Origin: a virus
Length of the DNA stretch: 53,854 bases
IMG/VR virus record: IMGVR_UViG_3300021961_000135
Location: 1-53,854 of that record
Strand: one strand, 5' to 3'
Program-made: the position numbers and the translations under genes
The notes under the pieces: model-generated
The model's input: only the letters and a program-made list of their open reading frames with translations
Told to the model about the DNA's origin: nothing
Databases searched by the model: none
In this document: piece by piece, positions 8,735-48,766 of the stretch
Numbering within the stretch: position 1 is the stretch's first letter
How the letters are laid out: each line of letters begins with the position of its first letter

Positions 8735-11700
8735 ATGGCTGACAAAATCCAACTCCCTAACGGTGCTTTCTTTCCAGTCAAAGAAGGCGAGAGCAAGGAA
8801 CAAACGTTGGCTGTGGCCAGACAGATGTACCCCGACGCTTTTGCCGCCCCCGTTGAGGCGGGCCCTAAGCAAGACACTACGGGTTTTAAAGCTGCCGCAT
8901 CTGCCGGTGCTACCCGCCTTGGCGGGGAGTTTGAATTGCTCAAAGGTAAGCTTGGGTTTAAAGACGAAGCTGAAGCGCAAAAAGAGTTTGAAGCCGCGCA
9001 GAAACGCGCACAAGCACGCTTTACCCCTACGGAAGAAGGCTGGACTGAGGCCCCGTTTCAGAAGTTTAAAGAGACGCTGGGGGGCTCGTTGCCGTACATG
9101 GCCGCTCCAGCCGCCGCAGGCCTTGCGGCTTTGGCTGCTCCTGTGTCTGCTCCCGTTGCGGCAGGTCTTGGTTTGTTGGGAGCAGGCGCTGTCTCTACCG
9201 GTCAGTTTACAGGCTCCAACCTTGCGCGTCAGATGGGGACAGACAAGTCGTTGGAAGAAACAAGCCTAGGTAAAGCCGTAGGCGCAGCTATTCCTCAAGC
9301 ACTATTGGACACAGCCGCCATGGCGCTGTTGCCCGGTGTGGGCAAATTGTTTGGCTCTGTTGGTTCTAAGCTGACAACAGACCAAGCCAAAGCTATTGCT
9401 TCCCAGACACTTACTCGCACTATTGCAGACTACACTGCAAAAACGGGTCTGGCTATGGGGCGTGAGGGCGTTACAGAAGCCACGCAACAAGTCCTTGAAC
9501 GGCTACAAGCTGGCCTAGCAATCACAGATGAAGAAGCGCGTAAAGAGTATATTGACAGCTTTATTGGCGGTGCGGTACTTGGCGGTGCAATTGCACCTAT
9601 TGGCCGGGCGTTTGAGCGTTCTGGAGCAAAACGGCAAGTAGCGGAGTTGGAGAAAACAGAAACACAGCAACGCCGTGCGGAAGAACTGCAAGCACAAAAA
9701 GCCGAAAAACAAGCCGCTATAGAAGCCGAAGAAGCTAAAAAAAGCACTTCCCAATACGCACTTGATGTTGACAGCCGCTTAGAAGCCGTTAAAGCCCAGA
9801 TCAAAGAATTAGATATTGCCAGTAAAGCCACGTTTGAAGAGGGTGATATTGCCGCTGAAACAGCTAAAAAAGAAGCACAGAAAGCCAAAAAAGCTTTACG
9901 CAATTCTGACGAAACTAAAGAGTTAATTAAAGAGTGGAACGAACTCAAACAAGCTGGACGCATTGACGCCGCTAAAGAAGAGCAACGCGTGGCCGGCATG
10001 TCGCCCGAAGAGTACGCGCTGTACCAAGCTGAGCAACAAAAACAAATCTCAGGCAAGCAAAAGATTAAACCTACAGAAGTGGGTATTGCCGATCCGTTTG
10101 CATCTGTGCCACCAGCGCCAGCACTTACAACTCAGTACGCCCAAGAGCGAATTAACTTAGCTAAACAGCAAGTGCCTGAGCAAGTGGCTTTGGCTATGCA
10201 AAAAGGGCCAGAGCAAGATTTTAATGTCTATGTAGATTACTTGATGGCCGACCCCTACATGGCGTCGCAATTAGTAAAAACACGTACGCCCCTACCGCTT
10301 TTAGTTGAGCCTCAAAAGAACCAAGAAAAACAAGCGCGGGATCAGAAAAAAGCAGAAGAAACTGTGTATGGCGGTTTGAATCTTCAACTAAAAGAACTAC
10401 GCCTACAAAAAGCCGCTGAAGCCGCGCGACCTAATGAAGCACGTTTAAAAAGTGTTGAAGATGAAGAGCAAGCCGCCATCCAAGCTAGCCGTGCGGCTGA
10501 AGCCCAAGCCGTTGAAAAAGCTGCTTTGCTTGAGCGCATGGCGCCTGAGATGCAGGCGCTTCAGCGCATTAAAAACGCGCCTTCTCCAATCACACAGAAC
10601 ATGGAGATGTTTAAGGGCGAAACCGCGCCCCCATCAGTGTCCCCTGCGTTTAGCCAACTACAGCAACGCTTACAGGGTATACCCTTAGAAAAAGGCACAC
10701 TGCCAACAGCCGAAGAGATTGTGCCGCCAGAAGAAGTTAAACGTGTTGTTACACGCGGTGAAGGCAAAGAGTTTAATCTTCGCCCCATTTCTGAGGTCAC
10801 TAAAGCCCCAATCACGGCAGAAAACTTACAAGGCCGTGTTAACCGCGCTTTGTCTGTCTTTGACTTGTCTCCAGAAGCCGAGACTTTCTTGCGCCGCGCT
10901 GAGCAGGTAATTCCGCAAGCAGACATGACGCTTAAGCAGGCCACATCAGGAGCAACAGATCAGGGCACGCGCCAAAACATTTCTGAGTCGCAGGGCTTCC
11001 TTACACTACTTGACAGACAGTTAGCCAAGATTGAAAGCGGTGAAGAGGGTATCCCACGCAAGGGTGCTGGTCGCCCCCAGATGTTGCAAACATTCCCTCC
11101 GACAAAACAGACGCAAGCACAGGTCAGCGCTACAACGCCAACAGAAGCGTTTAAGAAAGATGTTGATAGTATTACCGGAGCCGTTCCCGGACAAGCGCGG
11201 TCTGTGCCTCAGATGGAGATGTATGCCCAACGCGAGCGTTTAGAGCGTACAGGCAAGCCCGGCAAGTTGCCCGGCTTTGTGGCGCAGCCAGAAGAAGATC
11301 AACGCACACAAGGTGTGCCCGGTCGTGCCGTTGTTGAAAAACGTGCACAAGATATCAACCCCCCTGTTTACCGCACAGACCCTGTTACCGGCAAACGCGA
11401 AATGGTGTCTGGCACTATTCGCGGCAAGGGCGTGGAAGCAGTGCCACTGTCTTTGCAACGTGAGTTGGAGCCTTTGGTTCGTTTATCCGAGACAGTGCGC
11501 GATGAGCAAGCTGGACAATTGCCTTTGTTTGGTGCAGCCGATGAACGTAGCCGTGTACAGAAAGCAGAACGCCGTGGTATTGAAGCTGGCCCAAGCCTAG
11601 ATATTGGTGCAAGGCCAGACGTAGAGTCGTTCCAACGCTTTATGAACAGCCCATACGTTCGCAAGCTCAAGCAAGACATGCAGCAGTCTGAGAAAGACTT

Positions 11701-14700
11701 AGCCCCTGTCCGTGCGTTCTTAAACAGAGCGTTGCCGCGCCTGAAGCAGATGCTGCAAGACAGCAAAGCTACAACTGCCCGTATGAGCAAGATCAAGAAC
11801 TGGACTAAGTTCTTGAAAGAAAACCAAGAATTGACTGCGTTTCAGACCAACACTGAGAACATGGCGCTGAAGATGAACAATCTGAAGCTAAGTGTCAGTG
11901 ATCTGAACGCCCGTATTAAGTCGTACGAACAGGCTAAAGAAGAACTAATTAACGAAGCCAACCGCTCCGGCATACGCGCCAGAGGCGGCGCAGCAGAGAC
12001 TGCGATGCTCAAAGAGTTGGACGATCTGATTGCGTTGCACGAAGAAGCCAAGGCCGAGTACACCCAGACTAAAGGTGCGTTGGACTTGGTGCGTACACAG
12101 ATCAAAGTGTTGGTGGGCGAACAGCGCTTGGCTGAACTCAAGGCAACAGTTGATCCGTTGGAAAAGTCCAACGAATCTGCAAAAGCGGAAATTGAACGCC
12201 TGAAAGAAACAATCCGCACAGCACAAGCCGAGGTTGGAGAAGCCGAGACTAAAGAACGCCAAGCCGCCGCAGACAAAGCCCAAGCTGTACAAGGCGCTAA
12301 AGCTGGTTCTGTTGCCGCTTTGGAAAAACAAATCTCTGACGAGCGTGCACGTCGTTGGAACACAGCATTGTCTGGATTCCCCCAAGGTGTACAAGTACGT
12401 GCCCTAGGCCCTGCTGAACGGGATGCCCGTGAGCGTGGGTTGACTGCTGATGCATCGGAAGCCGTTAAATACAAAAACGAGTTGTACAACAAGCCGTTGA
12501 TATCTTTGATATTAGAGCTTGGTAATATAGACAAGCAGTTGGCTGAAGCAACAGCCAAAGTTACTGCCGCCCGTAAAAAGTCCGGCTCGTATGTGGGCGG
12601 TGAGCAAAACGTCATGGCGTTTAAAGGCTTAGGCTCTGCCATTCGTTTGCAAAGCCGTTTGTCTGTACGCAAAGAATCGGTTGAAAACGTAATTAATTTT
12701 ATGCGCGCGCGTAATGTGCCGCTTAGAAAAACACTTGGCGCACAACCTGAAGCTCGTTCAGCTAGCATTGAAGAACAGGACACACTTGACCAGTACATAG
12801 ATCAGGTGCAAGAGTTGGGCAAGGCAACAGACCGTCTTGCCGATCTTACTGTTCAACGTGATGATGCCATCAGGGACGGGAACACCAAAACTGTTGCACG
12901 CTTAAACGAACAGATTGACAAGGTCAACACTGAAATATCTGTTGGTACAGAAGGTAAGGCTAAACTGGCTGTTGCCCTACAAGGCCGTGTATCGGCTGGC
13001 GCCCGTCAAACTACCAGCGCTCCGGGCAAGTTCCGCACAGGTTCGGAAGAATCCAAACGCACTACCGGCTCCGTCAAACAGCCGTTGGTTGAGCAGCGAA
13101 CAATCAAGTCGCCTACAGTCAAACAGGCGGTGGCAGAAGCCAACGCATATGCAGAAAAGATCCGTGCTGGTCAGAAAGAATTGACCGCGGCACAGGAAGC
13201 GGCGATTGAAGCTGAGCGCCAAGCTGAGTTCCAGTACATACTTGAGAAACGTGAAGCGGATCTCACAACCAAGTTGGAAGAATCACAACGAGAGCTTGAG
13301 CGTCTGAGAGCTATTGACGCAAGGCCATACAGAGAAAACTTGGTTCGCCCTACTGAACAAGAAAAAACCGATCTTCAGAACGAGATCACCAGCTTTAGTA
13401 AAGAATTGGCAGCTGTCAAGCGTGAGTTGACAGAGCAGATGCGCAAGATGTATCGCAGTGACACATCTATCGTGGAAGAAGACATCGAAGCCGCAGAATC
13501 CAAGCCTCGCGGTCGCCCACGTAAACTGACTGAAGAAGATGTGTATGGCGAAGACACCCGCAAAGCTGCCGCTATGGAAGACGTCTATAGCCAACGAGAT
13601 GATGAAAGCTACGCCCGCGGTGTTGAATCTACTAGCCCAGACCTGACAGCCGCACAAGTGCGTGCGCTGGAAAAAAACGATCTACGCGCCGCTTTCACCG
13701 ATATGGCCAAAGACCCTGCCACATCGCAGGTCAACCGTGCCGTGGCACAACGCCTAGCCGACATGCTAGACGACACCAGTGTATCAATCCAAGACCGCGT
13801 ATTGGATGAGAACGGCAAAGCCGTGCTGGGTTCCGCTACTAGCCGCCGTATTAATCTGAGTCGTAATGGCGGGTTGTCACAAGAGATTTTGTTGCACGAA
13901 GGTACACACGCCGCAGTTGAGCGCGTGTTGCAGTTGCCTGAAGGCAAGCTGACTCAGCAACAAGTTGTTGCCAAACGTGAACTGCAAGCGCTGTACAACG
14001 CAATTAAGAGCGATCCAAAGATTACCAGCGCATCTGCCAAGGGCAGCATCTCTGAATTTGCCGCTGAAGTCATGTCCAACCAAACCTTACAGCGTCAGTT
14101 GCAAGGCAAGAAGTGGCGTCTGTCTGACGCGTGGGCTGGCTTCAAGAGCATCATCATGCGCTTGTTGGGCGTTCAGCGTCCAGAGACAATGTTTGGTGCA
14201 GCGCTTCAGTCTGTTGATGCGTTGATGATTCCATCTAGTGTGCGCACCAAGGGCGTTGAGCGGGTGGTGTCACGCAAACTGGCACAGAAAGACATTGCCG
14301 CGCTACATACCGGCAGTAACTCCATGAAGCAGTTTGCCGAACAGTTTGGCCCAGAGATCAAGCAGAAAGATCGCACAGCAGAAGACGCCAATCGCATTGG
14401 TGAGGACACGCTTGAGAAAATGTACAATTTTCCCAGCGATTACATTGCCAAACCTGACCCAGACAAGCTGGCTAAAAATGCCAAAGTTATTATGTCTGAC
14501 GGCAAACCGTACGACGAGAACAACCCCCTGCACTATGTGGAAGCTGATGCGCAAACGTTCATTAACTTGGAGCTACAAAAAAATAACCGCGTAATGCAGG
14601 ACTACGCGCAAAGCATTTACAGAAAAAGGCAACAAGATTTACGCCAGCTTGTATCGGATTTTTTAGATACTTCAGAGTACACGCGTGTTGAACAAGCGCT

Positions 14701-17700
14701 GGTGGCTAAAGCTGCGTCTAAGTACGCAGTGTTGTCAGATAAAGACGGGCGTTTAAAGCTGGCTGAAATGGGCAAAGACAACACGCACCATTTAGCGTTT
14801 GTCAGCAGTAAAGACGCAGGCGAAGTTATTCGCAAGTTGCGCGAAGGTTTGCCTTTGAAGCAAGCCTTCCTTGAAGGCATGCAAGAAGTTGCTGACCGCA
14901 ACGCAGAACAAAATGCACAGAAAAACGGCTGGCAAAAGTTTGAACAGAGCACTATTGTCAAACGTCCAGCAATACGGATTATGATGTACGCGCCAAACGG
15001 CGATGTAACTTTTGATACGATTGAACCACGCAACATGGTGCCTGCTGTTCCTGTAGGTGGTGCAGCCCGTGTAGCGGAGCCAATGTCGCTTGCAGAAAAT
15101 TTACGCCGCACGGCTCACGCAGCGTTAATTCGCCGTATTGAACCCGGCGCTTTAACAGAAGAACGTGAGCGTGAGCTTCCTTTTGAGGTGCCTTATTTTG
15201 CCTCACCAAGACCGCAAAGACTTGTGTTTGTAGACAACGATAAAAACGTCAAAGTATTGTCGTTGACGGTTGCACAACACGCATTATTGGAACACGAAAA
15301 CGCGCGCCTTGACGCAGAAGGCCAACCACGGTTGGGCACTGTTGATGAGGTCGCAGAGTTTTTACAAACTTACTACGACGAAATTTACTCCAAAGTAAAA
15401 CCTGTTGAGGAATCTGCTGCCGAACTTAATGCTGGCGCGGCTGGAACATCATGGTGTACTGGCGCTTCTGTGCAGACCGCTAGAAGTCAGATTGAGCAAG
15501 GCGACTTTTACATCTACTACAAGAACGGCAAACCTGAAGTGGCCGTTCGCATGGACGGTACAACAACTATTGGCGAAATCCGTGGCAACACGGAATCCCA
15601 AGGGCTTACAAGCGAACAAGAACTGATTGCCAAAGACTTTTTGTCCAGCACTAATTTTGCAGGTTCACAAAGCTACATCACTGCGCTAGAACGTAAACAA
15701 GCGTTGCTCAAAATATTAAAAGGTGATATTGATCCACGCTTCCTGATGACGCTTGGCCCGTACATATCTAGTTACGGAGCTAACGACACAACGGTAGAAA
15801 TGTTGCTGGACTACAGCGCAATTGATGGTGAGATGTTTGTGCGTCGCCCTGACCCATCAAGAAAGTTGATTGAAGCAGTCGGCGGCAAGCTTGAGGAAGC
15901 TACCGAAAAAGTGATGGAGCAAGGGTATTTCCCCGGAATGATTGCATGGATTGGGCTTAATGACGAACGGGGCTCCGATCAAATGTACCACGTCGTGCTT
16001 TCATATAAAGGCAACAGGGTAACTCGTCCTTTGGACGGCGTTGTTGCCGCGGGCAAGTTGTGCTTTGTTGGGGGCACTTACGAGTTACCTAACTTGAAAG
16101 ACGTTAACGCCGTATTCTTTGATGAGGAATCCGATGTTAGCCTGCCGCAAATAGATACAGTTGGTCTTGTTGAATTTGGCGGCGACAAACATGTTCATGT
16201 GTTGCGCCTAGCTGACAACGCCGTTGTTAACACGGTGGCCGTAGCGCCAATGGGCAGCTTTCGCACAAAACAAGAGCACACAAGAGTTCGCGGTATTATT
16301 AAAAACGCAACCGTAATCAGCAACATTGAAGTTAATAATGGCACCGCATCGATGGAATTATTGTTGCCAGACGCTTTGTACGCGCCTGTGCCCAATGAAA
16401 ACAACACGCAACAAGATGTTGCCGACAACAATTCGCGTCAACTACTGCGCTTTTTTAGAAAGCTTAACGACAAGCATGACTTCTATTCAATAGAGTATAA
16501 GACTGACGACCCTATGACGGTCAAAATGCGCAACGCCACACGAGAAGCGTTTGGTGAAGATGCCGTGACGTATGCGGACGATCTCACGTACGAGTCTACA
16601 AGTTTGCGTTCATGGCTTGAAGAATCTGTCATGGAGTATTTTGATTCACAGCAAGCTAAGTCAGACACTGACATTTTTAAACTTGCCAAAAAAATAAATA
16701 AAGCTTTTGACATTGCAAAAGAAGACGTAGAAAGAGTGTTGACCGATGACAGAAATCAGATTGGGAAGATTTTTGCGCCCAAGCAAATAGCTGACGCACC
16801 GCCAGTACTGCAGCTTATTGAGCCAGAAGAGACGCCACGTTACGCAAGGGCTGCGGACTATGGCACGGACAATGCGCTGGTTGACTTGGCCAAAGATGTC
16901 ATGGCCAAGAAGAAAACTTTTAAAGAAAAACTGGGCACAACCCCGTTCCTCGAAGCCGAGATGCAGTTGATCGACATGCGCGCTGGTTTGCGTGAGGCTT
17001 TGAAAGCTGGTGCTAAAGAAATTGGCGACGACAGGCTGTTCACACAGGCTATGTCTCATGTAATTATGGCTGACCAGAAAATGGCAATGACAAATGCCAC
17101 GCTTCAAAAGGGGCCAATGGAGTTGTACACCGACGAGAAAGGGTTCTACGGCGTAAGGTCTACTGGCAAAGACAGTGCTGTTGACGTGTTTAAGTCTGTT
17201 GCAGACATACCGCAAGGCAATTCAGAAGCAAAAGCTAACATAGCTACCATATACATGATTGCTCAGCGTGCACTGAATAAGGGCGTGGCTAAGCTAGACC
17301 TAGGTGCTTTGGGCGTTACAGAAGCAAAACTGAAAGCTGCGCTTGCTGCAGCCGATGCCGATCCAAAACTGAAATTGGCGCTGGAGAACACTCGTTCTGC
17401 GTACAACGCGTACAACGAAGGCCAGATTAAGTTCTTGGCATCGACTGGCGCTATTACCAAGAAGGAAGCCGACAGGCTTTTGAAAGAAGGCGACTTCGTA
17501 CCGTTCTATCGTGTTAACGAAAACGGCATGGCACAGTTGGTGTTCAGCGATGAAGTCACTGTGACCATCGGCGACGTGCGTCGTCAGCCATACTTGCAAG
17601 AACTCAAAGGCGGCGAGACCCGCATCTTGCCAATCACTGAGACAATACAACGCAACACCTTGCTTATCACGGACAAGGCGCTGACTAACTTGGCTACCAA

Positions 17701-19516
17701 GAACATAGCGTATGCGTTCCAAGCAATTGGTGAAGGCAAAGGGCCAGCAGGCAAGGACGGCAAGCCGACCAACGCCATGCCTATTCACATGGGCACAGGC
17801 CCCGCGTCTCCAGACGTTATCCGGTTTAACCAAGAACCTGACCCGAACAAACCAAACGACACGGGCGAGCGTTGGCAACGTGTGAAAACAGACGACACGC
17901 TCATGGGTGGTATCCCTGCGCAGTTAATCGTGAAGAGTTTGGAAGGCGCTCACTTGACGCTTCCAGCGTTCTTGAAAGCTGGTGGTTACGCCGCTGACAT
18001 CTTGCGCTCTGGCGTAACTCGTATGCCAATCTACTTGGCTCGTCAGTTGGTTCGTGACCCAATGGCTGCAGCGTTTACGGGCGGTTTGGACTACAACCCC
18101 CTGACAGCGGTGGTTAAAGCAGGCCGTGAGTTCATTGCTTCTAGCCGTGGACAGAGCGCAACCAACGAAGAAATGCTTAAGAAAGGTTTGATCCAGAGCG
18201 GTATCTTTACTGGCGACCCAGACGACATGGCTAAGATAGCACTTCAGTTGGCGGGCGGTAAAGACCAAGGCGTTCTTGACAAAGTGTTTGCCGCAGCGGA
18301 CAGAGCCGCGATGCGTGCCGATGCTGCTACTCGTGCGCTGGTGTATGAAAATGCACGCCGTCAAGGACTGTCTGAAGTTGAAGCGGACATGGCTGTTCGT
18401 GAGTCAATGAACTTTTACAAGCGCGGCTTGTCGCCCACAGTGCAATACGCTAGCCGTTTGATTCCGTTCTTTAACGCGCAGATTCAGGGCTTGAACGTGT
18501 TGTATAAAGCAGCCCGTGGCCAGACTACGCTAGAAGACCAGCGTTTTATTCAGCAGAAGTTCTTTAACAACGCCCTGTTGCTTGTCGGCACGGGTATTGT
18601 TTACGCCATGGCGATGGATGACGATCCATACTTCCGCAACGCCAAGCCAAGGGACAAGTACAGTAACTTCTTCTTGCCGTTGCCGGGTGTTGATGAGCCG
18701 TTGAAGCTGCCTATTCCTTACGAGGCTGGTTGGTTCTTCTCAATGGCTGTTGCCGCAGTTGACGCTATGAAAGAGGAGACTGATGGCGTCCAGCAATGGC
18801 AAGCTCTGCGCGACATGTTCTTGCAGTCCGTGCCGGGTTACTCGTCTAAGTTCATGCCCCAGATTGTCAAGCCAGCGTTTGAAGTGTGGACTAACAAGAA
18901 CTTCTTTAACAACACATCCATTGAGTCTGCAAGAATGGAGAGGCTGTCGCCCGAACAGCGCTTCTCGGAGACAACAACGGAAGCCGCCAAAGCTATGGGT
19001 AAAGCAGTTCCAATACTGTCTCCAATACAGATTGAGCACATTGCTACAGGCTACTTTGGTCAGTTGCCGCTGATTATCGCGGGCGCTGCAAACAGCTTGT
19101 TCCGTACCGAGACTCGTGGTGAAGCGCCTGAAAAGCGTGTGACTGACTTGCCCTTTATTGGCAGTTCGTTCCAGAAGAAGTATGGCGGTGCAGACACCGA
19201 TGTGATGTACCGCTTGTCAACCGAAGCTGTGCAGGCTAAGTCTACCTTTGACAGCCTGCGCAAAAAGGGGCAGGTGACGGAAGCCAAAGATTACTTGGAA
19301 GACAACCGCGTATTGATTGCATCAGCACCCATAGCGCGTAACTACCAGAACATCATGGGTAAACTTCGCTCTGATGCGGAACGCATTAACAGCATGGAAA
19401 ATTTGAGCGGTGCTGAAAAACGTGCGCGGTTGGATAGGATTGACGCGGCACGACAGGATGTGGCTGACAAGTTTGAGAAAGCTATGAAGCGGCTACGAGA
19501 CGGCGATAGAACATAA
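8735..19516 (+). CDS. Giant polyvalent protein (3593 aa): zincin, PcfJ-like and LPD38-like regions
   Basis: The largest gene in the window, 20% of its length. Residues 120-155 and 275-290 are hydrophobic Ala/Gly-rich stretches, possibly membrane-active. Residues ~295-430 and ~990-1560 are long charged coiled coils. LLHEGTHAAVERV places a zinc-protease HExxH motif at 1721-1725, with a possible third ligand Glu in SEFAAEVMSN near 1774. A region around 2239-2285 has SWCTG ... GDFYIYYKNGKPEVAVRM ... IGEIRGN, resembling PcfJ-type domains. The C-terminal ~350 residues (RLIPFFNAQIQGLNVLYKA, then a hydrophobic helix and a YEAGWFFS region) resemble LPD38. Such polyvalent proteins are known to be delivered with phage or plasmid DNA to act on host defences or targets. 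Delivery is inferred here. Confidence 0.7.
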   Translation: MADKIQLPNGAFFPVKEGESKEQTLAVARQMYPDAFAAPVEAGPKQDTTGFKAAASAGATRLGGEFELLKGKLGFKDEAEAQKEFEAAQKRAQARFTPTEEGWTEAPFQKFKETLGGSLPYMAAPAAAGLAALAAPVSAPVAAGLGLLGAGAVSTGQFTGSNLARQMGTDKSLEETSLGKAVGAAIPQALLDTAAMALLPGVGKLFGSVGSKLTTDQAKAIASQTLTRTIADYTAKTGLAMGREGVTEATQQVLERLQAGLAITDEEARKEYIDSFIGGAVLGGAIAPIGRAFERSGAKRQVAELEKTETQQRRAEELQAQKAEKQAAIEAEEAKKSTSQYALDVDSRLEAVKAQIKELDIASKATFEEGDIAAETAKKEAQKAKKALRNSDETKELIKEWNELKQAGRIDAAKEEQRVAGMSPEEYALYQAEQQKQISGKQKIKPTEVGIADPFASVPPAPALTTQYAQERINLAKQQVPEQVALAMQKGPEQDFNVYVDYLMADPYMASQLVKTRTPLPLLVEPQKNQEKQARDQKKAEETVYGGLNLQLKELRLQKAAEAARPNEARLKSVEDEEQAAIQASRAAEAQAVEKAALLERMAPEMQALQRIKNAPSPITQNMEMFKGETAPPSVSPAFSQLQQRLQGIPLEKGTLPTAEEIVPPEEVKRVVTRGEGKEFNLRPISEVTKAPITAENLQGRVNRALSVFDLSPEAETFLRRAEQVIPQADMTLKQATSGATDQGTRQNISESQGFLTLLDRQLAKIESGEEGIPRKGAGRPQMLQTFPPTKQTQAQVSATTPTEAFKKDVDSITGAVPGQARSVPQMEMYAQRERLERTGKPGKLPGFVAQPEEDQRTQGVPGRAVVEKRAQDINPPVYRTDPVTGKREMVSGTIRGKGVEAVPLSLQRELEPLVRLSETVRDEQAGQLPLFGAADERSRVQKAERRGIEAGPSLDIGARPDVESFQRFMNSPYVRKLKQDMQQSEKDLAPVRAFLNRALPRLKQMLQDSKATTARMSKIKNWTKFLKENQELTAFQTNTENMALKMNNLKLSVSDLNARIKSYEQAKEELINEANRSGIRARGGAAETAMLKELDDLIALHEEAKAEYTQTKGALDLVRTQIKVLVGEQRLAELKATVDPLEKSNESAKAEIERLKETIRTAQAEVGEAETKERQAAADKAQAVQGAKAGSVAALEKQISDERARRWNTALSGFPQGVQVRALGPAERDARERGLTADASEAVKYKNELYNKPLISLILELGNIDKQLAEATAKVTAARKKSGSYVGGEQNVMAFKGLGSAIRLQSRLSVRKESVENVINFMRARNVPLRKTLGAQPEARSASIEEQDTLDQYIDQVQELGKATDRLADLTVQRDDAIRDGNTKTVARLNEQIDKVNTEISVGTEGKAKLAVALQGRVSAGARQTTSAPGKFRTGSEESKRTTGSVKQPLVEQRTIKSPTVKQAVAEANAYAEKIRAGQKELTAAQEAAIEAERQAEFQYILEKREADLTTKLEESQRELERLRAIDARPYRENLVRPTEQEKTDLQNEITSFSKELAAVKRELTEQMRKMYRSDTSIVEEDIEAAESKPRGRPRKLTEEDVYGEDTRKAAAMEDVYSQRDDESYARGVESTSPDLTAAQVRALEKNDLRAAFTDMAKDPATSQVNRAVAQRLADMLDDTSVSIQDRVLDENGKAVLGSATSRRINLSRNGGLSQEILLHEGTHAAVERVLQLPEGKLTQQQVVAKRELQALYNAIKSDPKITSASAKGSISEFAAEVMSNQTLQRQLQGKKWRLSDAWAGFKSIIMRLLGVQRPETMFGAALQSVDALMIPSSVRTKGVERVVSRKLAQKDIAALHTGSNSMKQFAEQFGPEIKQKDRTAEDANRIGEDTLEKMYNFPSDYIAKPDPDKLAKNAKVIMSDGKPYDENNPLHYVEADAQTFINLELQKNNRVMQDYAQSIYRKRQQDLRQLVSDFLDTSEYTRVEQALVAKAASKYAVLSDKDGRLKLAEMGKDNTHHLAFVSSKDAGEVIRKLREGLPLKQAFLEGMQEVADRNAEQNAQKNGWQKFEQSTIVKRPAIRIMMYAPNGDVTFDTIEPRNMVPAVPVGGAARVAEPMSLAENLRRTAHAALIRRIEPGALTEERERELPFEVPYFASPRPQRLVFVDNDKNVKVLSLTVAQHALLEHENARLDAEGQPRLGTVDEVAEFLQTYYDEIYSKVKPVEESAAELNAGAAGTSWCTGASVQTARSQIEQGDFYIYYKNGKPEVAVRMDGTTTIGEIRGNTESQGLTSEQELIAKDFLSSTNFAGSQSYITALERKQALLKILKGDIDPRFLMTLGPYISSYGANDTTVEMLLDYSAIDGEMFVRRPDPSRKLIEAVGGKLEEATEKVMEQGYFPGMIAWIGLNDERGSDQMYHVVLSYKGNRVTRPLDGVVAAGKLCFVGGTYELPNLKDVNAVFFDEESDVSLPQIDTVGLVEFGGDKHVHVLRLADNAVVNTVAVAPMGSFRTKQEHTRVRGIIKNATVISNIEVNNGTASMELLLPDALYAPVPNENNTQQDVADNNSRQLLRFFRKLNDKHDFYSIEYKTDDPMTVKMRNATREAFGEDAVTYADDLTYESTSLRSWLEESVMEYFDSQQAKSDTDIFKLAKKINKAFDIAKEDVERVLTDDRNQIGKIFAPKQIADAPPVLQLIEPEETPRYARAADYGTDNALVDLAKDVMAKKKTFKEKLGTTPFLEAEMQLIDMRAGLREALKAGAKEIGDDRLFTQAMSHVIMADQKMAMTNATLQKGPMELYTDEKGFYGVRSTGKDSAVDVFKSVADIPQGNSEAKANIATIYMIAQRALNKGVAKLDLGALGVTEAKLKAALAAADADPKLKLALENTRSAYNAYNEGQIKFLASTGAITKKEADRLLKEGDFVPFYRVNENGMAQLVFSDEVTVTIGDVRRQPYLQELKGGETRILPITETIQRNTLLITDKALTNLATKNIAYAFQAIGEGKGPAGKDGKPTNAMPIHMGTGPASPDVIRFNQEPDPNKPNDTGERWQRVKTDDTLMGGIPAQLIVKSLEGAHLTLPAFLKAGGYAADILRSGVTRMPIYLARQLVRDPMAAAFTGGLDYNPLTAVVKAGREFIASSRGQSATNEEMLKKGLIQSGIFTGDPDDMAKIALQLAGGKDQGVLDKVFAAADRAAMRADAATRALVYENARRQGLSEVEADMAVRESMNFYKRGLSPTVQYASRLIPFFNAQIQGLNVLYKAARGQTTLEDQRFIQQKFFNNALLLVGTGIVYAMAMDDDPYFRNAKPRDKYSNFFLPLPGVDEPLKLPIPYEAGWFFSMAVAAVDAMKEETDGVQQWQALRDMFLQSVPGYSSKFMPQIVKPAFEVWTNKNFFNNTSIESARMERLSPEQRFSETTTEAAKAMGKAVPILSPIQIEHIATGYFGQLPLIIAGAANSLFRTETRGEAPEKRVTDLPFIGSSFQKKYGGADTDVMYRLSTEAVQAKSTFDSLRKKGQVTEAKDYLEDNRVLIASAPIARNYQNIMGKLRSDAERINSMENLSGAEKRARLDRIDAARQDVADKFEKAMKRLRDGDRT

Positions 19517-31642: not shown

Positions 31643-31869
31643 GCTTGTCCCCTTGCTCGGATGGCTTTCAAAACCCGATCACTTAGTGCTTTATCTGCGC
31701 CAAGTAATGCAAGACCAGCCGTATTGGCACACGCCTCACGCTCCTCGGCAACGACCCGCTCAACAAGGGTCATCAGGTGCTGAGTACTACAGTGCCACGA
31801 CTTGTACTCACGATTTTGATCTATGGCCTCATGCAACATAAAGGCTACTTGTTCTGCGTTGTATTTCAT
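31639..31869 (-). CDS. Small protein (76 aa), phage-typical ERVVAEEREAC motif
   Basis: VERVVAEEREACANTAGLAL is a phrase frequent in short phage proteins. The beginning MKYNAEQVAFMLHEAIDQNR is helical. Overlaps of 4 bp with both neighbours indicate one polycistronic unit. Unknown function. Confidence 0.55.
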   Translation of the reverse strand: MKYNAEQVAFMLHEAIDQNREYKSWHCSTQHLMTLVERVVAEEREACANTAGLALLGADKALSDRVLKAIRARGQA

Positions 31870-32213
31870 GACTGCCCCCTTAACTTCAAGCCGCGCTCAT
31901 TTAAACGCTCAATGATTTCTCTTAAGCTTTTGCGTCCTAAATTTGGAGTCTTAAGCAGGCGTTGCTCGGTGCACCCAAGTAACTGCGTGATGGTGTAAAT
32001 TTCTTCTGCTTTCAAGCAATGCTCAGACCTAACAGTCAGCCCAAGGGCTTCAATCCCATCAAATACAACAGCCTCAGCCATTGCCCATTTATTCAGGATT
32101 TCCTGTCTGCGCTCTATCATGTCTTCCGCAACACGGTAAGCATCACGGGCTGATTGCGGGGAAACCCTCAATACCTCAAGCGCTAAATGGTCAAGTAATT
32201 CTTCTTTAGTCAT
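31866..32213 (-). CDS. RNA polymerase alpha C-terminal-domain-like protein (115 aa)
   Basis: I start it at ATG 32213 (AAGGA upstream; ATGA overlap with the previous stop), not the in-frame ATG at 32228. Residues ~58-111 read GLTVRSEHCLKAEEIYTITQ, then QRLLKTPNLGRKSLREIIER and LNERGLKL, aligning without gaps to bacterial RpoA alpha-CTD. Known E. coli DNA-contact residues R265, C269, G296, K298, S299 and E302 are kept (R62, C66, G93, K95, S96, E99); N268 is replaced by H65. Residues 1-55 are an unrelated helical region. It could bind UP-element-like DNA or host regulators. The amino-terminal assembly domain of alpha is absent. Confidence 0.85.
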   Translation of the reverse strand: MTKEELLDHLALEVLRVSPQSARDAYRVAEDMIERRQEILNKWAMAEAVVFDGIEALGLTVRSEHCLKAEEIYTITQLLGCTEQRLLKTPNLGRKSLREIIERLNERGLKLRGQS

Positions 32214-32473
32214 TGGTAGTCCTTGCATGAATGGTGTTTAGCATCTTCACGGTCTGTCCATGTACCTGTGCAACCTGTACACTTAAACTTGCCTGCGGTG
32301 ATTGAAAACTTACCCGTCAACCTTGGCTCAGGCAGTTCAAGTTGTTCTGCATAAATGCGCTCACGCTCGGCAGAAGCGACAAGGGCGGCAAAGCGTCTTA
32401 GCGCTCCATGATCTCCATCCATGCCAACAAACCCTGCCTCTTGTGCCATGCGAGTGATGTCTTCTCTGTTCAT
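32210..32473 (-). CDS. Small protein with possible zinc site (87 aa)
   Basis: MNREDITRMAQEAGFVGMDG begins a phrase shared by many short phage proteins, followed by RRFAALVASAERERI. The C-terminal half has KFKCTGCTGTWTDREDAKHH with CxxC and His pairs, a possible small zinc knuckle. It overlaps the alpha-CTD-like gene by 4 bp. Unknown function. Confidence 0.55.
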   Translation of the reverse strand: MNREDITRMAQEAGFVGMDGDHGALRRFAALVASAERERIYAEQLELPEPRLTGKFSITAGKFKCTGCTGTWTDREDAKHHSCKDYQ

Positions 32474-34645: not shown

Positions 34646-35320
34646 TTAACCTCCAAACATCTGCTTCAAGTGCACATACAACTCATGCGCTTGGTACACA
34701 GTCATGTCTTGGAGAATGTCGTGCGGTGTCTTCGTACGCACAAGGGACACGAACGCTTTACGCTGTGTTGTATGCAACAACGGCTCAGACGCGGTAACCC
34801 CACTCATTGCATACGCGGCGGCATCCATTGCGTCTTGGCTAGGCGCAGGCATAAGCGGGTTTTCCAGCTTGGCTTTCAACAGCGCACCGATGCCTGTCGT
34901 GGCTTTCTTCTCGGGCTTTGGCTTCTCTTTCTTCTTGTAGTTAGGGTTCTTGATGGGCTCGTACTCTTTCACATCTGCGTACCACAGGCCGTTGGTGTCG
35001 TGGATCATTTTGCTTCTGCGCATCTGTGCAAGCAAAGACGAGATTGACCCCTTGCCAAAGCCTTGATGCCCAAGCTCTCTGATGATCTCTTGACGCGTAG
35101 AGCCGGGGTTGTCCTTGACATAGTTGAAGGTGACACGGGAGACATTGTTGGTGATTTTGTGTTGATTAAGCATGATTGGTCTTTGAGAAGGTGCGGATAC
35201 AGAGTTGTTGATAGTAGTGCTGATAGTAGAAGAGGTCTGGGGAGATTCCTCCCCGTCATCATCCCACTCGCGCAGAGTGGTACTAAGAGCAGCTTTGAGA
35301 GCAGTTTGAATGTCAGGCAT
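34646..35320 (-). CDS. Winged-helix-like DNA-binding protein (224 aa)
   Basis: Translation from ATG 35320 (GGAGG eight bases upstream) gives MPDIQTALKAALSTTLREWD. Residues ~50-115 (NNVSRVTFNYVKDNPGSTRQ, then IIRELGHQGFGKGSISSLLA, MRRSKMIHDTNGLWY) have the helix-turn-helix plus wing pattern of MarR/PadR-like domains. A basic linker (KKKEKPKPEKKATTG) connects to a C-terminal helical region. It is a candidate regulator of the minus-strand genes. Its start overlaps the 3' end of the small membrane-protein gene by 8 bp. Confidence 0.65.
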   Translation of the reverse strand: MPDIQTALKAALSTTLREWDDDGEESPQTSSTISTTINNSVSAPSQRPIMLNQHKITNNVSRVTFNYVKDNPGSTRQEIIRELGHQGFGKGSISSLLAQMRRSKMIHDTNGLWYADVKEYEPIKNPNYKKKEKPKPEKKATTGIGALLKAKLENPLMPAPSQDAMDAAAYAMSGVTASEPLLHTTQRKAFVSLVRTKTPHDILQDMTVYQAHELYVHLKQMFGG

Positions 35321-36378: not shown

Positions 36379-36403
36379 TAAAAATGTGGGGGCAAGCCCC
36401 CAC
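36379..36403 (-). terminator. Rho-independent terminator after the glutamine amidotransferase gene
   Basis: On the minus strand an 8-bp stem GTGGGGG/CCCCCAC (36386-36403) with a short loop is followed by ATTTTTAT. It lies 7 bp after the stop at 36410 and only 18 bp before the next start at 36367, so it may also act as a hairpin leader for that gene. Confidence 0.75.
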
Positions 36404-36409
36404 TACGAA

Positions 36410-37528
36410 TCAAGTCAACAGCGCAGGTAGTACTGGCTTGAAGACTGCAGGCTTGCGTACATCCCATTGCAGGTAGTAGCAGATGACCTCAGCGATAGCT
36501 GTGACTGTATGGAACGACTTGGTCGCGGCACTGATAAGACCAGACGCATCGCCCTCCACCAGCATATCGTATATGCCTTGCTCGGCAAAGCACAGGTCAT
36601 CACGATGCGAGTAGCTAAGCGCAGACGCTTGGAAGCAGTGCAGTAGCGTAGTCAGCGTGTACGCAGGCATCTGGTCAAGCCAGACCTCGATGCTGTCCAC
36701 ATCAGCCTCCAGCACCGCATTGGCAATCTCATCAGCTTCAGGGCGCACAAAGCCATCCTCATCAGCATCGGCATCTGGGAACTCGTAAGACGCCTCGTCG
36801 TAGTTGGCGCTGTGTGCGCTAGCCTTGCGTGGATAGATGCCAAAGCTTGCGTTGTAGTCGTACATCTCGTCGTACTCGTCATCCATGTAGTTGCCGTAGC
36901 CACTCGTGTACTTGTACGACTTGAGCGCAGTCGTGCTTTTGTAGCTGGGTATAAGACGCGATGGAGTCCAAGCGTAGGTATTGCTGAACCACATATCGTC
37001 ATGCTCGATACCTTGATCGAAGTTGACATGCTGCATACGACCCTCGCCGTTCATGAACACGAAGCGATTGTTGCCGATGAACTCCTCCATCATAGACACG
37101 AAGCCCTTGTCGTACACAAGGTCAGGGGCAGAGGACACAGCGCTGTGCAAGTAGTCCTTGATGAAGTGCCATGTATCTGACTTGGACTTGTCAGCGGCAT
37201 TGCCCGTGTGCAGTACGCCGTTGTGCATCATGGCGATGAAGCCAGGAATCACATCATAGGGATGGCAGTTGAGCATATCGGTCTTGCCGTGTGTAGTCCA
37301 GCGGAAGTGAATAGCGATCTCACGCTCGTCTTGAGGCAGGCGCTGAATGAATGCAGTAGCATCGCCAAGATTCTTGGGCAAGGTCTTGGTGACCTTGAGC
37401 CCCTTGGCTGTGCCATACATGAACCCAATGCCGTCAGGGTTGGAGGTGAAGATGTCGCTGAGTAAACCGTGCGTGTCGAGCAGGGTTGAACGAACTTTGG
37501 AAGACTTGCCAGTAATAATGAGACACAT
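36410..37528 (-). CDS. Class II glutamine amidotransferase (Ntn-type)
   Basis: 372 residues. It starts MCLIITGKS, leaving Cys2 as the likely N-terminal nucleophile after Met removal. It continues with the GAT-II pattern: NPDGIGFMYG (~30-39), AIHFRWTTHGKT (~72-83) and GFIAMMHNGVLHTG (~95-108). These form the Gln-binding and active-site motifs. The middle and C-terminal 190 residues are Tyr/Asp-rich and of unknown function, unlike the compact GAT-II of PurF. GAT-II releases ammonia from glutamine for a partner. The next gene upstream (37586) is an amidoligase, the known genomic partner of such proteins. Confidence 0.85.
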   Translation of the reverse strand: MCLIITGKSSKVRSTLLDTHGLLSDIFTSNPDGIGFMYGTAKGLKVTKTLPKNLGDATAFIQRLPQDEREIAIHFRWTTHGKTDMLNCHPYDVIPGFIAMMHNGVLHTGNAADKSKSDTWHFIKDYLHSAVSSAPDLVYDKGFVSMMEEFIGNNRFVFMNGEGRMQHVNFDQGIEHDDMWFSNTYAWTPSRLIPSYKSTTALKSYKYTSGYGNYMDDEYDEMYDYNASFGIYPRKASAHSANYDEASYEFPDADADEDGFVRPEADEIANAVLEADVDSIEVWLDQMPAYTLTTLLHCFQASALSYSHRDDLCFAEQGIYDMLVEGDASGLISAATKSFHTVTAIAEVICYYLQWDVRKPAVFKPVLPALLT

Positions 37529-37552
37529 AATAAACTCCTTGAGAAAAAGAAT

Positions 37553-37568
37553 GGGGGGGTTTCTCCCC
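37553..37568 (-). terminator. Hairpin between amidoligase and amidotransferase genes
   Basis: On the minus strand GGGGAGAAACCCCCC (a variant of the dispersed hairpin) is followed by CATTCTTTTTCTC, a U-rich tract, and then the ribosome site AAGGAG of the next gene. It lies 17 bp past the amidoligase stop. A weak terminator or attenuator is likely; there is no room for a promoter. Confidence 0.45.
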
Positions 37569-37585
37569 GCTTGGTTGTTGTTGAA

Positions 37586-39667
37586 TTAAACAGGTTGATC
37601 GGCAGACACTTCGTACGAGCACTGCGCCATAGTTGCCGCGAATGACTCGTTCATAAGAACCCACAACTCATTGACACGCATATACACGACATCGCCAGCA
37701 GCGATGGTGTCCATGTCGCCGTACGGGAAGAACGCATACTCAGAGCCTGCGTATGTAGCGAAGCGGAAGTACAGGTTGTTGCGCTCTACCCATGTCCTGA
37801 TGGTCTCAGCCTCGCTGTCGTAGGGTATGTGCATGGGGTAGTCATGGTTGTGCCTGTGCTCTGTGTACTGAGGTTGCCACGGGGCAGGGGGCACAGCGTC
37901 AGCGCAGGTCTCTGAAGCAGGTGCGATGACTGTTGGCGTAGAGGTATGTATCTGACGCACGCCATACCACTTGGTCAGCGCAGGGTACTGGCCGACAACA
38001 GTACGAAGCCACTTGATGAACGATGCACCATTGAGATCACGCCACGATGCGACACGGCAGAACATGACAGCGGCATGAGTGAACTCGATCTGTGCAAGGA
38101 GGCGTTCTTTCTTGAGTGATGCACGGAAGATGCGAAGCTCGACAGTGTTGTACTTGCCGTTGTAGCTGTTGTCCATGCTAAGACCAAGACGCAGAGCCTC
38201 ACGCTTGCCAAGGTTCATCATGTTGACCATGCGATAGCGCTCACCAGACTTATTCTTGACAGCCTGCTTGGGGTTGACAAGTATGGACTGATGCTCAGCG
38301 GCGCAGTAGCTACGGGCTTGGTCATCGACAGATGGATGGCGACCAGCAATCTTACGAATGAAGTCGACATTGCCGTTGCTGTTGATGAACATGAGGAACT
38401 TGCCAAGCGTCAACTGCGTGAAGGCACGAGAGTCAATGTGGATGTGCATACCGCACTTGCCCGTGTTCCATGCACGATAGGCAGGGTCAATGTCCCAAGC
38501 CTTGAATGTCTCGATGTGCTTGGTCAAGCCGTGTGGCATGGTCACAACCTCGAAGCCGTTGTGCGGTAGAGAGCCGTCACTCTTGATGATGCAGTATGAG
38601 GAACCGAGACGGCTACGCACAGACTCAGCGGCTGGGTGAGTATCGCTGTCACCCGAAGTCATCTCAAGCTCGATGCCCATCGTGAACTCCCCGAAGTGAG
38701 AAGACCTGATGCCTGAGTCGGAGTCAAGCACATTGAGCACATTGGTAGAGTACGACATGATTGGCTGATCTCTATCGTCGTCATCGCTGTCTTCATCATC
38801 GTCGCTGTCGTCACGATCATAGGTGTAGTAGCAGTCGTCACGATCACTGTAGTACGCATCGTCACGAGGCCAGTACTCATCGTTGTCCTCGCAGTACACA
38901 GCGTCATCCTCGAAGCATGAGTCACACCAAGTATCACGGCGCACATCGTGCGTGTTGTTCTCGTCTTCGTAGTGACCGCAGTCGCAGTGCACGATGCCCA
39001 TGTCCATGTCATTGATGGCATTGAACGCGCTGTCCAAGTGACTGTTGAAGTCGCCGTAGCGGTTGGATAAGTCAAAGAACGAGGTGCGTATCTCATCATT
39101 GCTGATGGACTCATCGCCTGCCTTGGCACGAGCAACGAGATGCCCGAAGTTCTTGAACGAACTGCGTATGAGGTTGTACCCATCATTGCTGAAGTGATGA
39201 CCGCCCTTGAACACAGCGTGTGGGTTATCAGTGTGACCAGCATACGCAACAGGATCATGCTTGCGTGCATAAGCCTCAACGACCTGATCGATACGCACAG
39301 ACAGCCTACTGCGAGCAAGTCGTGGCATATCATCCATGAGTTTAGGTGTCAGCAGTCTACGCATCATCTGATGCATATCGTAGCGATCACGGCTCTCATC
39401 ACTAGCCTCCTTGTATGTGATGGCACGAGGTGCATGAGCAAGATCACCTCTGACACGATAGCGTGAGACGCGAGTCCACAGCGCAAGGTTGTCGTTGGTA
39501 AGCAGATCAAGCGGTGACTTGAAGTTTGCTGACATAGAGTCACTGACAGTCAAGCGCCTACGAGATGCGTTGTACACCATGTAGCGGTTGTTGAGTGACA
39601 CGACAAACATGATGGCGTTGGAAGAGTCAATGAAGTCTTCCATAACAAAGCGAGTGAATTGAAACAT
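37586..39667 (-). CDS. Amidoligase-family (ATP-dependent amide-forming) enzyme with zinc-ribbon-like insert
   Basis: 693 residues. The C-terminal half holds the amidoligase signature: TMGIELEMTSG (331-336, acidic metal/substrate pocket), IIKSDGSLP (361-368), GFEVVTMPHG (371-380), GMHIHIDSRAF (406-415) and NTVELRIFRASL (~513). These match the COOH-NH2 ligase fold (related to glutamate-cysteine ligases). Residues 228-259 carry CxC...CxxC plus another Cys, a zinc-binding insert, followed by a highly acidic stretch (~260-300). Residues 1-220 are unfamiliar. It would join a carboxylate to an amine using ATP, with ammonia from the neighbouring GAT-II. The substrate is unknown. Confidence 0.75.
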   Translation of the reverse strand: MFQFTRFVMEDFIDSSNAIMFVVSLNNRYMVYNASRRRLTVSDSMSANFKSPLDLLTNDNLALWTRVSRYRVRGDLAHAPRAITYKEASDESRDRYDMHQMMRRLLTPKLMDDMPRLARSRLSVRIDQVVEAYARKHDPVAYAGHTDNPHAVFKGGHHFSNDGYNLIRSSFKNFGHLVARAKAGDESISNDEIRTSFFDLSNRYGDFNSHLDSAFNAINDMDMGIVHCDCGHYEDENNTHDVRRDTWCDSCFEDDAVYCEDNDEYWPRDDAYYSDRDDCYYTYDRDDSDDDEDSDDDDRDQPIMSYSTNVLNVLDSDSGIRSSHFGEFTMGIELEMTSGDSDTHPAAESVRSRLGSSYCIIKSDGSLPHNGFEVVTMPHGLTKHIETFKAWDIDPAYRAWNTGKCGMHIHIDSRAFTQLTLGKFLMFINSNGNVDFIRKIAGRHPSVDDQARSYCAAEHQSILVNPKQAVKNKSGERYRMVNMMNLGKREALRLGLSMDNSYNGKYNTVELRIFRASLKKERLLAQIEFTHAAVMFCRVASWRDLNGASFIKWLRTVVGQYPALTKWYGVRQIHTSTPTVIAPASETCADAVPPAPWQPQYTEHRHNHDYPMHIPYDSEAETIRTWVERNNLYFRFATYAGSEYAFFPYGDMDTIAAGDVVYMRVNELWVLMNESFAATMAQCSYEVSADQPV

Positions 39668-39696: not shown

Positions 39697-39713
39697 GGGG
39701 AGAAAGTCTCCCC
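39697..39713 (-). terminator. Hairpin copy 1 of the 17-bp family (GGGGAGAAAGTCTCCCC)
   Basis: A 7-bp stem with a three-base loop. On the minus strand it is followed by ATCTTTTTATA, so it has intrinsic-terminator form. It lies 22 bp past the stop at 39735 and 30 bp before the start at 39667. It also serves as a boundary between the small-gene cluster and the amidoligase gene. Confidence 0.7.
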
Positions 39714-41413: not shown

Positions 41414-41440
41414 GAGATTATTGACTCCGAAATTGAGAGG

Positions 41441-41747
41441 CGGCCAAATGTCCAACACTACAGGGCGTAGACTAAGTTTGGTGTAGGCTCTGAAGCCGCA
41501 CCAATGCTAGCTTAGCACGAAAACTGTCCGATGTATCTATGTAATTTCTGGGAAGCTAACGCCAACCAAAAAAAGAAAGTCTTTGAGAAAGCGGAAATGC
41601 TCACCCCCTGATACATACATCTCTATATATATTTATATATATTATAGATAGATAGATAGGACAGTTTTTGCGGAACGCTAGTGTTCATGCGGGTTGCGGG
41701 GTTACACCAAACTTAGTTCGGGGGTTGTAGTGTTGGACATTTGGCCG
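41441..41747. other. 307-bp non-coding region with long-range dyad symmetry (candidate origin or control region)
   Basis: Two 45-bp arms, 41441-41485 and 41703-41747, are inverted copies: 22 of 22 outer bases and 15 of 15 inner bases match, with eight mismatched bases between. Inner pair AAAACTGTCC (41520-41529) and GGACAGTTTT (41659-41668) is exact and shares the same centre, base 41594. Shorter matches (CTAGC, TATCTAT) also mirror about that centre. The middle (about 41620-41660) is a run of A/T with GATA repeats that could melt easily. No gene over 20 codons with a ribosome site is seen. TGTCC half-sites occur four times. A replication origin or a control region is inferred. Confidence 0.7.
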
Positions 41748-41777
41748 TGACTGGTTTTTTGACTCAATAATCTCGCA

Positions 41778-48148: not shown

Positions 48149-48339
48149 TTCAAGAATTCGCATCCGTATTGCGCGACAAAATACGCACTGACATGAACAA
48201 CTATGCAGATGACTTGGCTGCAGGATCATGTCGATCATTTGATGATTACCAAAAACTCTGCGGGATTATTTCGGGTCTAGCCCTTGCAGAGCGTTATCTC
48301 CTTGACCTGCTACAGAAAGTTGAACAATCAGATGAGTGA
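48145..48339 (+). CDS. Small protein after the portal gene (64 aa)
   Basis: MIQEFASVLRDKIRTDMNNY, helical, then FDDYQKLCGIISGLALAERY. Its start overlaps the portal stop (ATGA) and its end overlaps the GroES-like start by 8 bp, a conserved tight packing of virion genes. The function is unknown; a small head factor is possible. Confidence 0.6.
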   Translation: MIQEFASVLRDKIRTDMNNYADDLAAGSCRSFDDYQKLCGIISGLALAERYLLDLLQKVEQSDE

Positions 48340-48766
48340 ACTCATTTTGCCACCGGGCATTGTCTTGCCTAAAAGTATCCAACCCGTTGAGATGCCAGAA
48401 GAAGACGATACCGAGGAAACCAAAGCAGGTGCACTGCCAACCCCCACAGGTTGGAAGTTGCTTTGCGTAGTGCCTGAAGTTGAAGCAAAGATTGCAGGTA
48501 CATCCCTTGATCTCGTGAGAGATACAGTCACTATGCGTCAAGAAGAACACGCCACCACGGTGCTGTTTGTATTGCGTGTAGGCCCCGATGCGTACAAAGA
48601 CACCGCCAAGTTCCCCACAGGTGCATGGTGTAAAGAAGGCGACTTTGTGTTAGTGCGTACTTACTCCGGCACAAGATTCAAAATCTTTGGCAAGGAGTTC
48701 CGTCTCATCAATGATGACCAAATTGATGCTGTTGTGCAAGACCCCCGCGGTTTAACCCGCGCTTGA
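48332..48766 (+). CDS. GroES-like co-chaperonin domain protein
   Basis: 144 residues from ATG 48332. PTPTGWKLLCVVPEVEAKIA, a mobile-loop-like HATTVLFVLRVGPDAYKDTA, KFPTGAWCKEGDFVLVRTYS and GKEFRLINDDQIDAVVQDP follow the Cpn10 beta-barrel order (GP-AY-D, CKxGD-V, IN-DD-I). The N-terminal 50 residues are acidic. Phage GroES-like proteins adapt host GroEL for capsid folding (as with T4 gp31). Position directly before scaffold and capsid fits that. It is not an obvious virion component. Confidence 0.75.
   Translation: MSELILPPGIVLPKSIQPVEMPEEDDTEETKAGALPTPTGWKLLCVVPEVEAKIAGTSLDLVRDTVTMRQEEHATTVLFVLRVGPDAYKDTAKFPTGAWCKEGDFVLVRTYSGTRFKIFGKEFRLINDDQIDAVVQDPRGLTRA

Follow-up and report, generated by a model that had tools for sequence, protein, structure and literature searches.

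A conserved amidoligase and class II glutamine amidotransferase gene pair in a freshwater-type phage

IMG/VR virus record IMGVR_UViG_3300021961_000135, a freshwater-type phage sequence of 53,854 bp (the window), carries two neighboring minus-strand genes: one encodes a predicted Amidoligase_2 enzyme, and the other a predicted class II glutamine amidotransferase (GAT-II, or GAT). They are a real and well-conserved member of a gene pair already known in phages (phiEco32, LUZ24, RIO-1, Marvin, and OM43 phages), whose chemistry and target are a question already posed. Both the pair and the hypothesis that it acts on the cell wall have been published for several phage groups (PMC10580990, PMC5498523, PMC3890496). 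Observed here are the families, folds, and catalytic residues of the two proteins; their fixed linkage; purifying selection; and the absence of two other cassette enzymes. The observation in an initial annotation is thereby confirmed, and its interpretation partly supported. Of the three outcomes named there as refuting (a ligase fold that is not GCL-like, catalytic residues lost in close relatives, or genes unlinked in relatives), none was found. Modification of a host, virion, or cell-wall component by the pair, as the annotation proposed, would be a reasonable reading with published precedent.

Both genes were found exactly where the initial annotation had placed them. The first comprises the following parts, all on the minus strand:

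37586–39667, minus: Amidoligase_2 gene, 693 residues, ATG start, stop included (Pfam, PHROG, Foldseek)
38993–39667, minus: N-terminal region, residues 1–225, a predicted alpha/beta part followed by a helical part (AlphaFold, alignment)
38816–38992, minus: putative zinc-binding module, residues 226–284, with C230-x-H232...C248-x2-C251 (alignment)
38759–38815, minus: acidic linker, residues 285–303 (alignment, AlphaFold)
38048–38695, minus: predicted ligase core, residues 325–540, with all catalytic motifs (alignment)
37589–37882, minus: variable C-terminal tail, residues 596–693 (alignment)

The protein matches Pfam Amidoligase_2 (PF12224) over residues 369–532 with 26.9 bits (cut-off 22), as well as PHROG families named amidoligase. 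It contains all five motifs that had been quoted for it: GIELEM (331–336), SDGSL, GFEVVTMP, GMHIHID, and VELRIFR. Twenty-six aligned sequences, spanning ~23–78% identity, all share residues G331, E333, E335, D364, G365, S366, G371, and E373, along with G406, H408, H410, R443, N482, E510, R512, and F514. The family motifs GxExE, DGS, the E of FE[VI]V, H-x-H, and E-x-R are invariant in this set and in a second one of 49 sequences.

An AlphaFold model, made from an alignment of 49 window and IMG/VR sequences (predicted local distance difference test, pLDDT, 81; predicted template modeling score, pTM, 0.47), was compared by Foldseek with the PDB. The top 22 matches all are glutamine synthetase (GS, including 5dm3), gamma-glutamylmethylamide synthetase (GmaS, including 9qur), the glutamate–cysteine ligase (GCL)-like protein 1tt4, Dop, or PafA. 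In a viral library, the model resembles phage amidoligases, including those of Tesla, tf, and CW02. The ligase thus is predicted to adopt a GS/GCL-like fold. This fold is recognized through structure prediction only: sequence search of PDB chains returned nothing beyond chance antibody matches, and profile search returned none. Query template modeling (TM) scores to PDB structures are low for both proteins of the pair (0.14–0.4), for the ligase because of its large extra regions and uncertain domain packing. Together, motifs and model point to an ATP-dependent, amide-bond-forming Amidoligase_2 enzyme whose catalysis is predicted.

Conservation is concentrated in the core, where mean identity to the window protein is 89% for close and 63% for far relatives. 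Residues 1–225 evolve fast (~50% and 12–17%, respectively) and are mostly predicted to be folded (block pLDDT ~55–94, mostly 80–94, with a dip near 140–160). The tail also changes fast: mean identity is 41% in close relatives, and coverage in far relatives is 8%, meaning that it is absent there. Next to the core, C230, H232, C248, and C251 are invariant in 49/49 sequences and form a putative zinc-type site. The following linker is rich in Asp and Glu in all relatives compared, with pLDDT <50 over residues 287–297. An insert of this type with an acidic tail had been noted at the outset.

The second gene comprises the following, again on the minus strand:

36410–37528, minus: GAT-II gene, 372 residues, ATG start, protein beginning MCLII, stop included (Foldseek, NCBIfam, GATase_4 in relatives)
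36941–37528, minus: predicted GAT-II catalytic domain, residues 1–196, with Cys2, Arg76, Asn103, Gly104, and Asp118 (invariant residues)
36413–36742, minus: C-terminal helical region, residues 263–372, after a disordered linker of residues 197–262 (AlphaFold)

Its Met-Cys start and GAT-II motifs, both noted at the outset, are retained, the motifs being HFRWTTHG, HNG, and SDT. An alignment of 28 sequences shows no change at C2, R76, T79, G81, H102-N103-G104, D118, or T119; Met-Cys and the catalytic residues R76, N103-G104, and D118 are invariant also in a set of 44. The window protein itself falls under the Pfam cut-offs for GATase_4 (11.3 versus 23 bits) and GATase_6 (12.3 versus 27). GATase_4 nevertheless is matched by 30 of the 44 relatives, for which it is the strongest Pfam family (best 1.3e-5), and NCBIfam GlmS matches residues 70–107 (3.4e-6). 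Foldseek searches with an AlphaFold model of moderate confidence (pLDDT 71.7) retrieved the GlmS glutaminase domain (E=8e-7, the best match), EgtC (4zfj, E=1.3e-5), and PurF (9e-4). Predicted fold and conserved residues thus carry the assignment as a GAT-II of predicted activity. The missed cut-off reflects a divergent sequence, and a profile threshold does not define the fold class.

Large extra domains had been proposed for both proteins. For the ligase this description holds. For the GAT it holds in part: residues ~198–260 are predicted to be disordered and ~265–352 helical, and a domain would thus account for only some of the extra 190 residues. This C-terminal region also evolves faster. 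Both genes are under purifying selection (ratio of nonsynonymous to synonymous substitution rates, dN/dS, 0.23–0.41 for the ligase and 0.04–0.21 for the GAT), which is strongest in the GAT core (dN 0.004–0.04 for its catalytic domain).

Might the motifs match by chance, in proteins that are not truly an amidoligase and a GAT-II? The GAT scores below Pfam cut-offs and the low TM-scores, the latter owing to extra regions, could be read so. Against this, sequence, profile, structure, and synteny evidence is independent and concordant; catalytic residues are invariant down to ~25% identity; and profile-profile comparison matches the two families to the LUZ24, phiEco32, and RIO-1 proteins with 95% and 84% probability. 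Chance resemblance therefore has next to no probability.

Linkage was surveyed by hmmsearch over all fetched loci, 194 of which have both genes (90 distinct sequence pairs). In every one of the 194, ligase and GAT genes are adjacent, in the same order (ligase first), and on the same strand. (An automatic adjacency rule accepts 192; the other two, L105 and L171, fail only from overlapping stop-to-stop open reading frames.) No GAT gene with upstream room lacks a ligase gene in the surveyed loci. Most loci are close relatives, and the independent evidence for linkage therefore comes from unrelated phages: a Manatee Spring podovirus, Methylophilales phages MEP401/402, all 19 Marvinvirus records, Acinetobacter phage 313, a gut phage, Christensenellales phages, LUZ24, phiEco32, and RIO-1. 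Co-occurrence of the two families, which the initial annotation had expected, is thus borne out.

The sole match in a bacterial genome, which adds to this independent evidence, is contig JAIRRE010000169.1 from a Burkholderiaceae metagenome-assembled genome, which has the pair (L237, 960–4116) at 37% identity. This contig also encodes a TrbC/VirB2 pilin (Pfam 1.4e-16), and a repeated stretch flanks the pair on both sides; the contig may be chimeric or may represent a conjugative element. Locus L159 has an endonuclease-like open reading frame of 179 residues between the two genes, and linkage still holds. An HNH gene likewise lies between them in UFV-P2 (PMC3890496). In locus L053 (3–1768), the GAT is 99% identical to that of the window and the C-terminal part of the ligase only 71%, which suggests recombination between the genes. 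Two distant phages, Clostridioides phage AR1086-1 and a Microcoleus phage, have the only ligases with downstream room but no GAT. The AR1086-1 gene (L109, 5668–7857) is immediately followed by the gene of an RlaP RNA-repair protein, with a gene for KptA RNA 2'-phosphotransferase nearby, a different context for a phage amidoligase.

Gene scans of the window place terminase, capsid, and other late genes on the plus strand, with DNA polymerase, a SNF2-type helicase, a DUF927-type primase/helicase, and nucleases on the minus strand. The pair lies near the upstream end of this replication-gene block, and its position among early and replication genes therefore suggests early expression. The two genes are separated by 57 bp, and each is preceded by a Shine-Dalgarno-like AAGGAG.

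What reaction might the pair catalyze? Glutamine-dependent amidation of a carboxylate is the simplest joint reaction, because the ligase fold is GS-like and its only constant partner is of the glutaminase type. We favor, at about even chances, a split glutamine-dependent amidotransferase that works like MurT/GatD and is built from other folds. MurT/GatD is a two-protein glutamine-dependent lipid II amidotransferase of Gram-positive bacteria (PMC3266927, PMC6085368). In the phage pair, Cys2 of the GAT would act as N-terminal nucleophile to hydrolyze glutamine. The ammonia would pass to the amidoligase, which would activate a substrate carboxylate with ATP as an acyl phosphate and release a primary amide. 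The variable N-terminal region of the ligase probably recognizes the substrate. The most likely substrate class would be a cytoplasmic cell-wall precursor or another host molecule, whose amidation would favor the infecting phage, for example by hindering superinfection, a benefit that others have suggested for phiEco32 and RIO-1-like phages. We infer, rather than observe, the reaction direction, ammonia transfer, docking, early expression, and substrate.

A role for the zinc-type module in docking would follow the MurT precedent, in which a Cys-rich, zinc-ribbon-like insertion contributes to docking with GatD (PMC6085368). In a small survey of 14 pairs with a loose pattern, most pairs carry Cys-rich clusters, whether in the ligase or at the C-terminus of the GAT; the same loose pattern finds no clear cluster in the two lone ligases.

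Several points weigh against the split amidotransferase. Docking is by analogy only, and zinc-type clusters are missing from the StenR_269, Christensenellales, and gut phage pairs. The 99%-identical GATs beside ligases with differing C-terminal regions (L053) do not suggest a tightly co-evolved interface there. From the lone AR1086-1 and Microcoleus ligases it follows that the ligase fold needs no GAT. Such amidoligases might also accept an amine that is not ammonia. Finally, by sequence the GAT resembles EgtC/YafJ-type GATase_4 hydrolases no less than it does synthase-linked glutaminases.

This last point leads to the main rival, a ligase plus hydrolase like EgtA/EgtC of ergothioneine synthesis, in which a gamma-glutamyl-cysteine ligase is paired with an amidohydrolase of GAT-II fold (PMC9103826). 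The phage ligase would attach an amino acid, glutamate or a different one, by a gamma- or isopeptide bond, and the GAT-II would remove gamma-glutamyl groups; the outcome would be a tag that can be reversed or an intermediate that is processed. Besides this documented pairing, the rival draws on the EgtC structures among the best Foldseek matches; on GATase_4 as the best-matched Pfam family; on the resemblance of the ligase model to 1tt4 and to the tag-handling PafA/Dop pair; and on the classing of the RIO1-like phage GAT with peptidoglycan-degrading functions (PMC5498523). Yet the GlmS glutaminase domain is the best GAT match, NCBIfam also returns GlmS, and the two genes co-travel alone; a gene for an intermediate step, after glutamyl addition and before removal, is not apparent. 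No ergothioneine partner genes are recognizable among the window genes scanned. We regard this rival as possible, with a clear minority of the probability. At least two chemistries fit the pair, and formation of a peptide or amide tag is only one of them.

Alternatively, the pair might make or modify a small molecule, or a nucleic-acid or translation component, for metabolic takeover or counter-defense, leaving cell wall and protein alone. Its siting among early and replication genes, away from virion genes, would fit, as would the RNA-repair neighbors of the isolated Clostridioides difficile phage amidoligase and the finding of no recognized cell-wall gene among the window genes scanned. But the AR1086-1 protein is distant and has no GAT. 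The pairs of LUZ24, phiEco32, RIO-1, and StenR_269, moreover, have gamma-glutamyl cyclotransferase, COOH-NH2 ligase, and ATP-grasp genes as neighbors, and the chemistry proposed for these genes is that of peptides or the cell wall (PMC5498523). This makes a small-molecule or nucleic-acid target quite unlikely.

The split amidotransferase also can be taken further: a two-subunit enzyme invented by phages and convergent with MurT/GatD, its subunits joined by the zinc module. Soon after infection it would modify a peptidoglycan precursor, or another host macromolecule, by amidation and so alter the susceptibility of the cell to competing phages. In this full form the proposal is doubtful.

For these genes, the literature found identifies no product, and modification of host cell wall or proteins has been predicted for >10 years. 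With strongly conserved active sites and ~90 natural variants, this two-gene lineage is simpler than the seven-gene cassette for finding the reaction. A new amide, if found, would account for early phage genes of a widespread class, and possibly for a mechanism of superinfection exclusion.

Each gene had been described as bounded by hairpins, and such elements indeed are present:

39697–39713, minus: 17-bp palindrome GGGGAGA-CTT-TCTCCCC, upstream of the ligase gene; a T-rich stretch and then a Shine-Dalgarno sequence come after it
37552–37569, minus: degenerate copy of the palindrome between the ligase and GAT genes, with intact versions in relatives
36386–36403, minus: terminator-like hairpin GTGGGGGCTTGCCCCCAC with T-run ATTTTTATAG, after the GAT gene

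The first is not specific to the pair. It is one of seven GGGGAG...CTCCCC-type palindromes within 35.2–43.0 kb, the early region (starts at 35239, 39697, 40662, 41169, 41791, 42472, and 42995). Palindromes of this family, 15–17 bp long with the layout GGGG-xyz-spacer-z'y'x'-CCCC, occur also in the same region of 42 distinct related loci. Across these 42, inner arms are uniform within a genome (95% modal, versus 48% in shuffles, maximum 55%); they differ among genomes, with both arms changed in match. The palindromes therefore are a genome-specific family separate from the ligase/GAT pair. Uniformity within genomes together with compensation between them suggests a phage-specific binding protein or strong homogenization, and the palindromes possibly are operators of a co-evolving regulator. 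Cluster O mycobacteriophages have unexplained 17-bp dyads, thought to be sites of dimeric DNA-binding proteins (PMC4351075), with the same 7-3-7 layout.

Two other roles were considered. The three-nucleotide centers and an open reading frame of 3593 residues raised the idea of hairpin promoters as in N4, read by a virion RNA polymerase; PDB sequences gave no N4 RNA polymerase match, and the reading frame has an LPD38 domain. Simple terminators fit poorly, with a clear T-run after only one of the seven.

Other features of the window deserve mention. The 3593-residue reading frame (8735–19516, plus) has its LPD38 "large polyvalent protein" domain near the C-terminus and matches PHROGs of unknown function. 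A 120-residue protein (31866–32228, minus) contains an RNA polymerase alpha C-terminal domain (Pfam E=3.5e-19), with few comparable matches among annotated phage records; hijacking of host transcription activation is possible. Between terminase/portal-size genes and the capsid gene lies a 160-residue protein (48284–48766, plus) whose C-terminus weakly resembles chaperonin-10 (GroES), scoring slightly under the Pfam cut-off. Finally, a 130-nt imperfect inverted repeat (41414–41543 and 41645–41774) is 74% complementary, mostly non-coding, and AT-rich at its center; it is 86–89% identical in many relatives, and its single-strand DNA fold has a z-score of −9.2. It possibly is a replication origin or structured RNA. 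An Rfam scan of the window found no known RNA.

How does the pair compare with known systems? EgtA/EgtC likewise joins a GCL-like ligase to a protein of GAT-II fold, so the folds are compatible; EgtC is a hydrolase, and sequence does not distinguish hydrolase from glutaminase for the window GAT. MurT/GatD differs in fold: MurT is a Mur ligase and GatD a class I glutaminase, whereas the window proteins are predicted to have a GS/GCL fold and a class II (N-terminal nucleophile) GAT fold. The likeness to MurT/GatD, drawn by analogy, would be one of function only.

Among phages, the amidoligase/GAT-II cassette is documented in phiEco32, LUZ24, UFV-P2, and RIO-1-like podoviruses (PMC10580990, PMC5498523, PMC3890496); PMC10580990 cites Iyer et al. 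(2009), and cell-wall modification or prevention of superinfection is a prediction there. Larger cassettes add gamma-glutamyl cyclotransferase, COOH-NH2 ligase, and ATP-grasp genes (PMC5498523, PMC3890496). As in the window, phiEco32, LUZ24, UFV-P2, and RIO-1-like podoviruses have Amidoligase_2 close to a GAT-II with a C-terminal extension, among early and replication genes. Those cassettes have the Cys-rich module in the GAT C-terminus, and the window lineage has it in the ligase. Profile searches for the cyclotransferase (PF06094) and COOH-NH2 ligase (PF14395) found no gene in the window or nine long relatives; the controls LUZ24 and phiEco32 were positive for both and RIO-1 for the cyclotransferase, so the pair acts without them. 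(A RimK profile for ATP-grasp had no window match, but its controls themselves were weak or missed; no ATP-grasp was seen among scanned window genes.)

Because these two profiles find nothing there, the window lineage appears to have the two-gene form, like Marvin and MEP401/402. Marvinvirus, MEP401/402 (OM43), and Manatee Spring podovirus ctgrD200 share the order and strand of the window genes and have these two enzymes only, and in most the Cys-rich segment is N-terminal to the ligase, as in the window. (The Marvinvirus amidoligase, at 5764–7125 of L108 and in 18 other records, is mostly labeled "glutamine amidotransferase domain protein", the same as its GAT neighbor.) They differ from the window pair in sequence (~23–30% identity), in their shorter proteins, and in their N-terminal regions.

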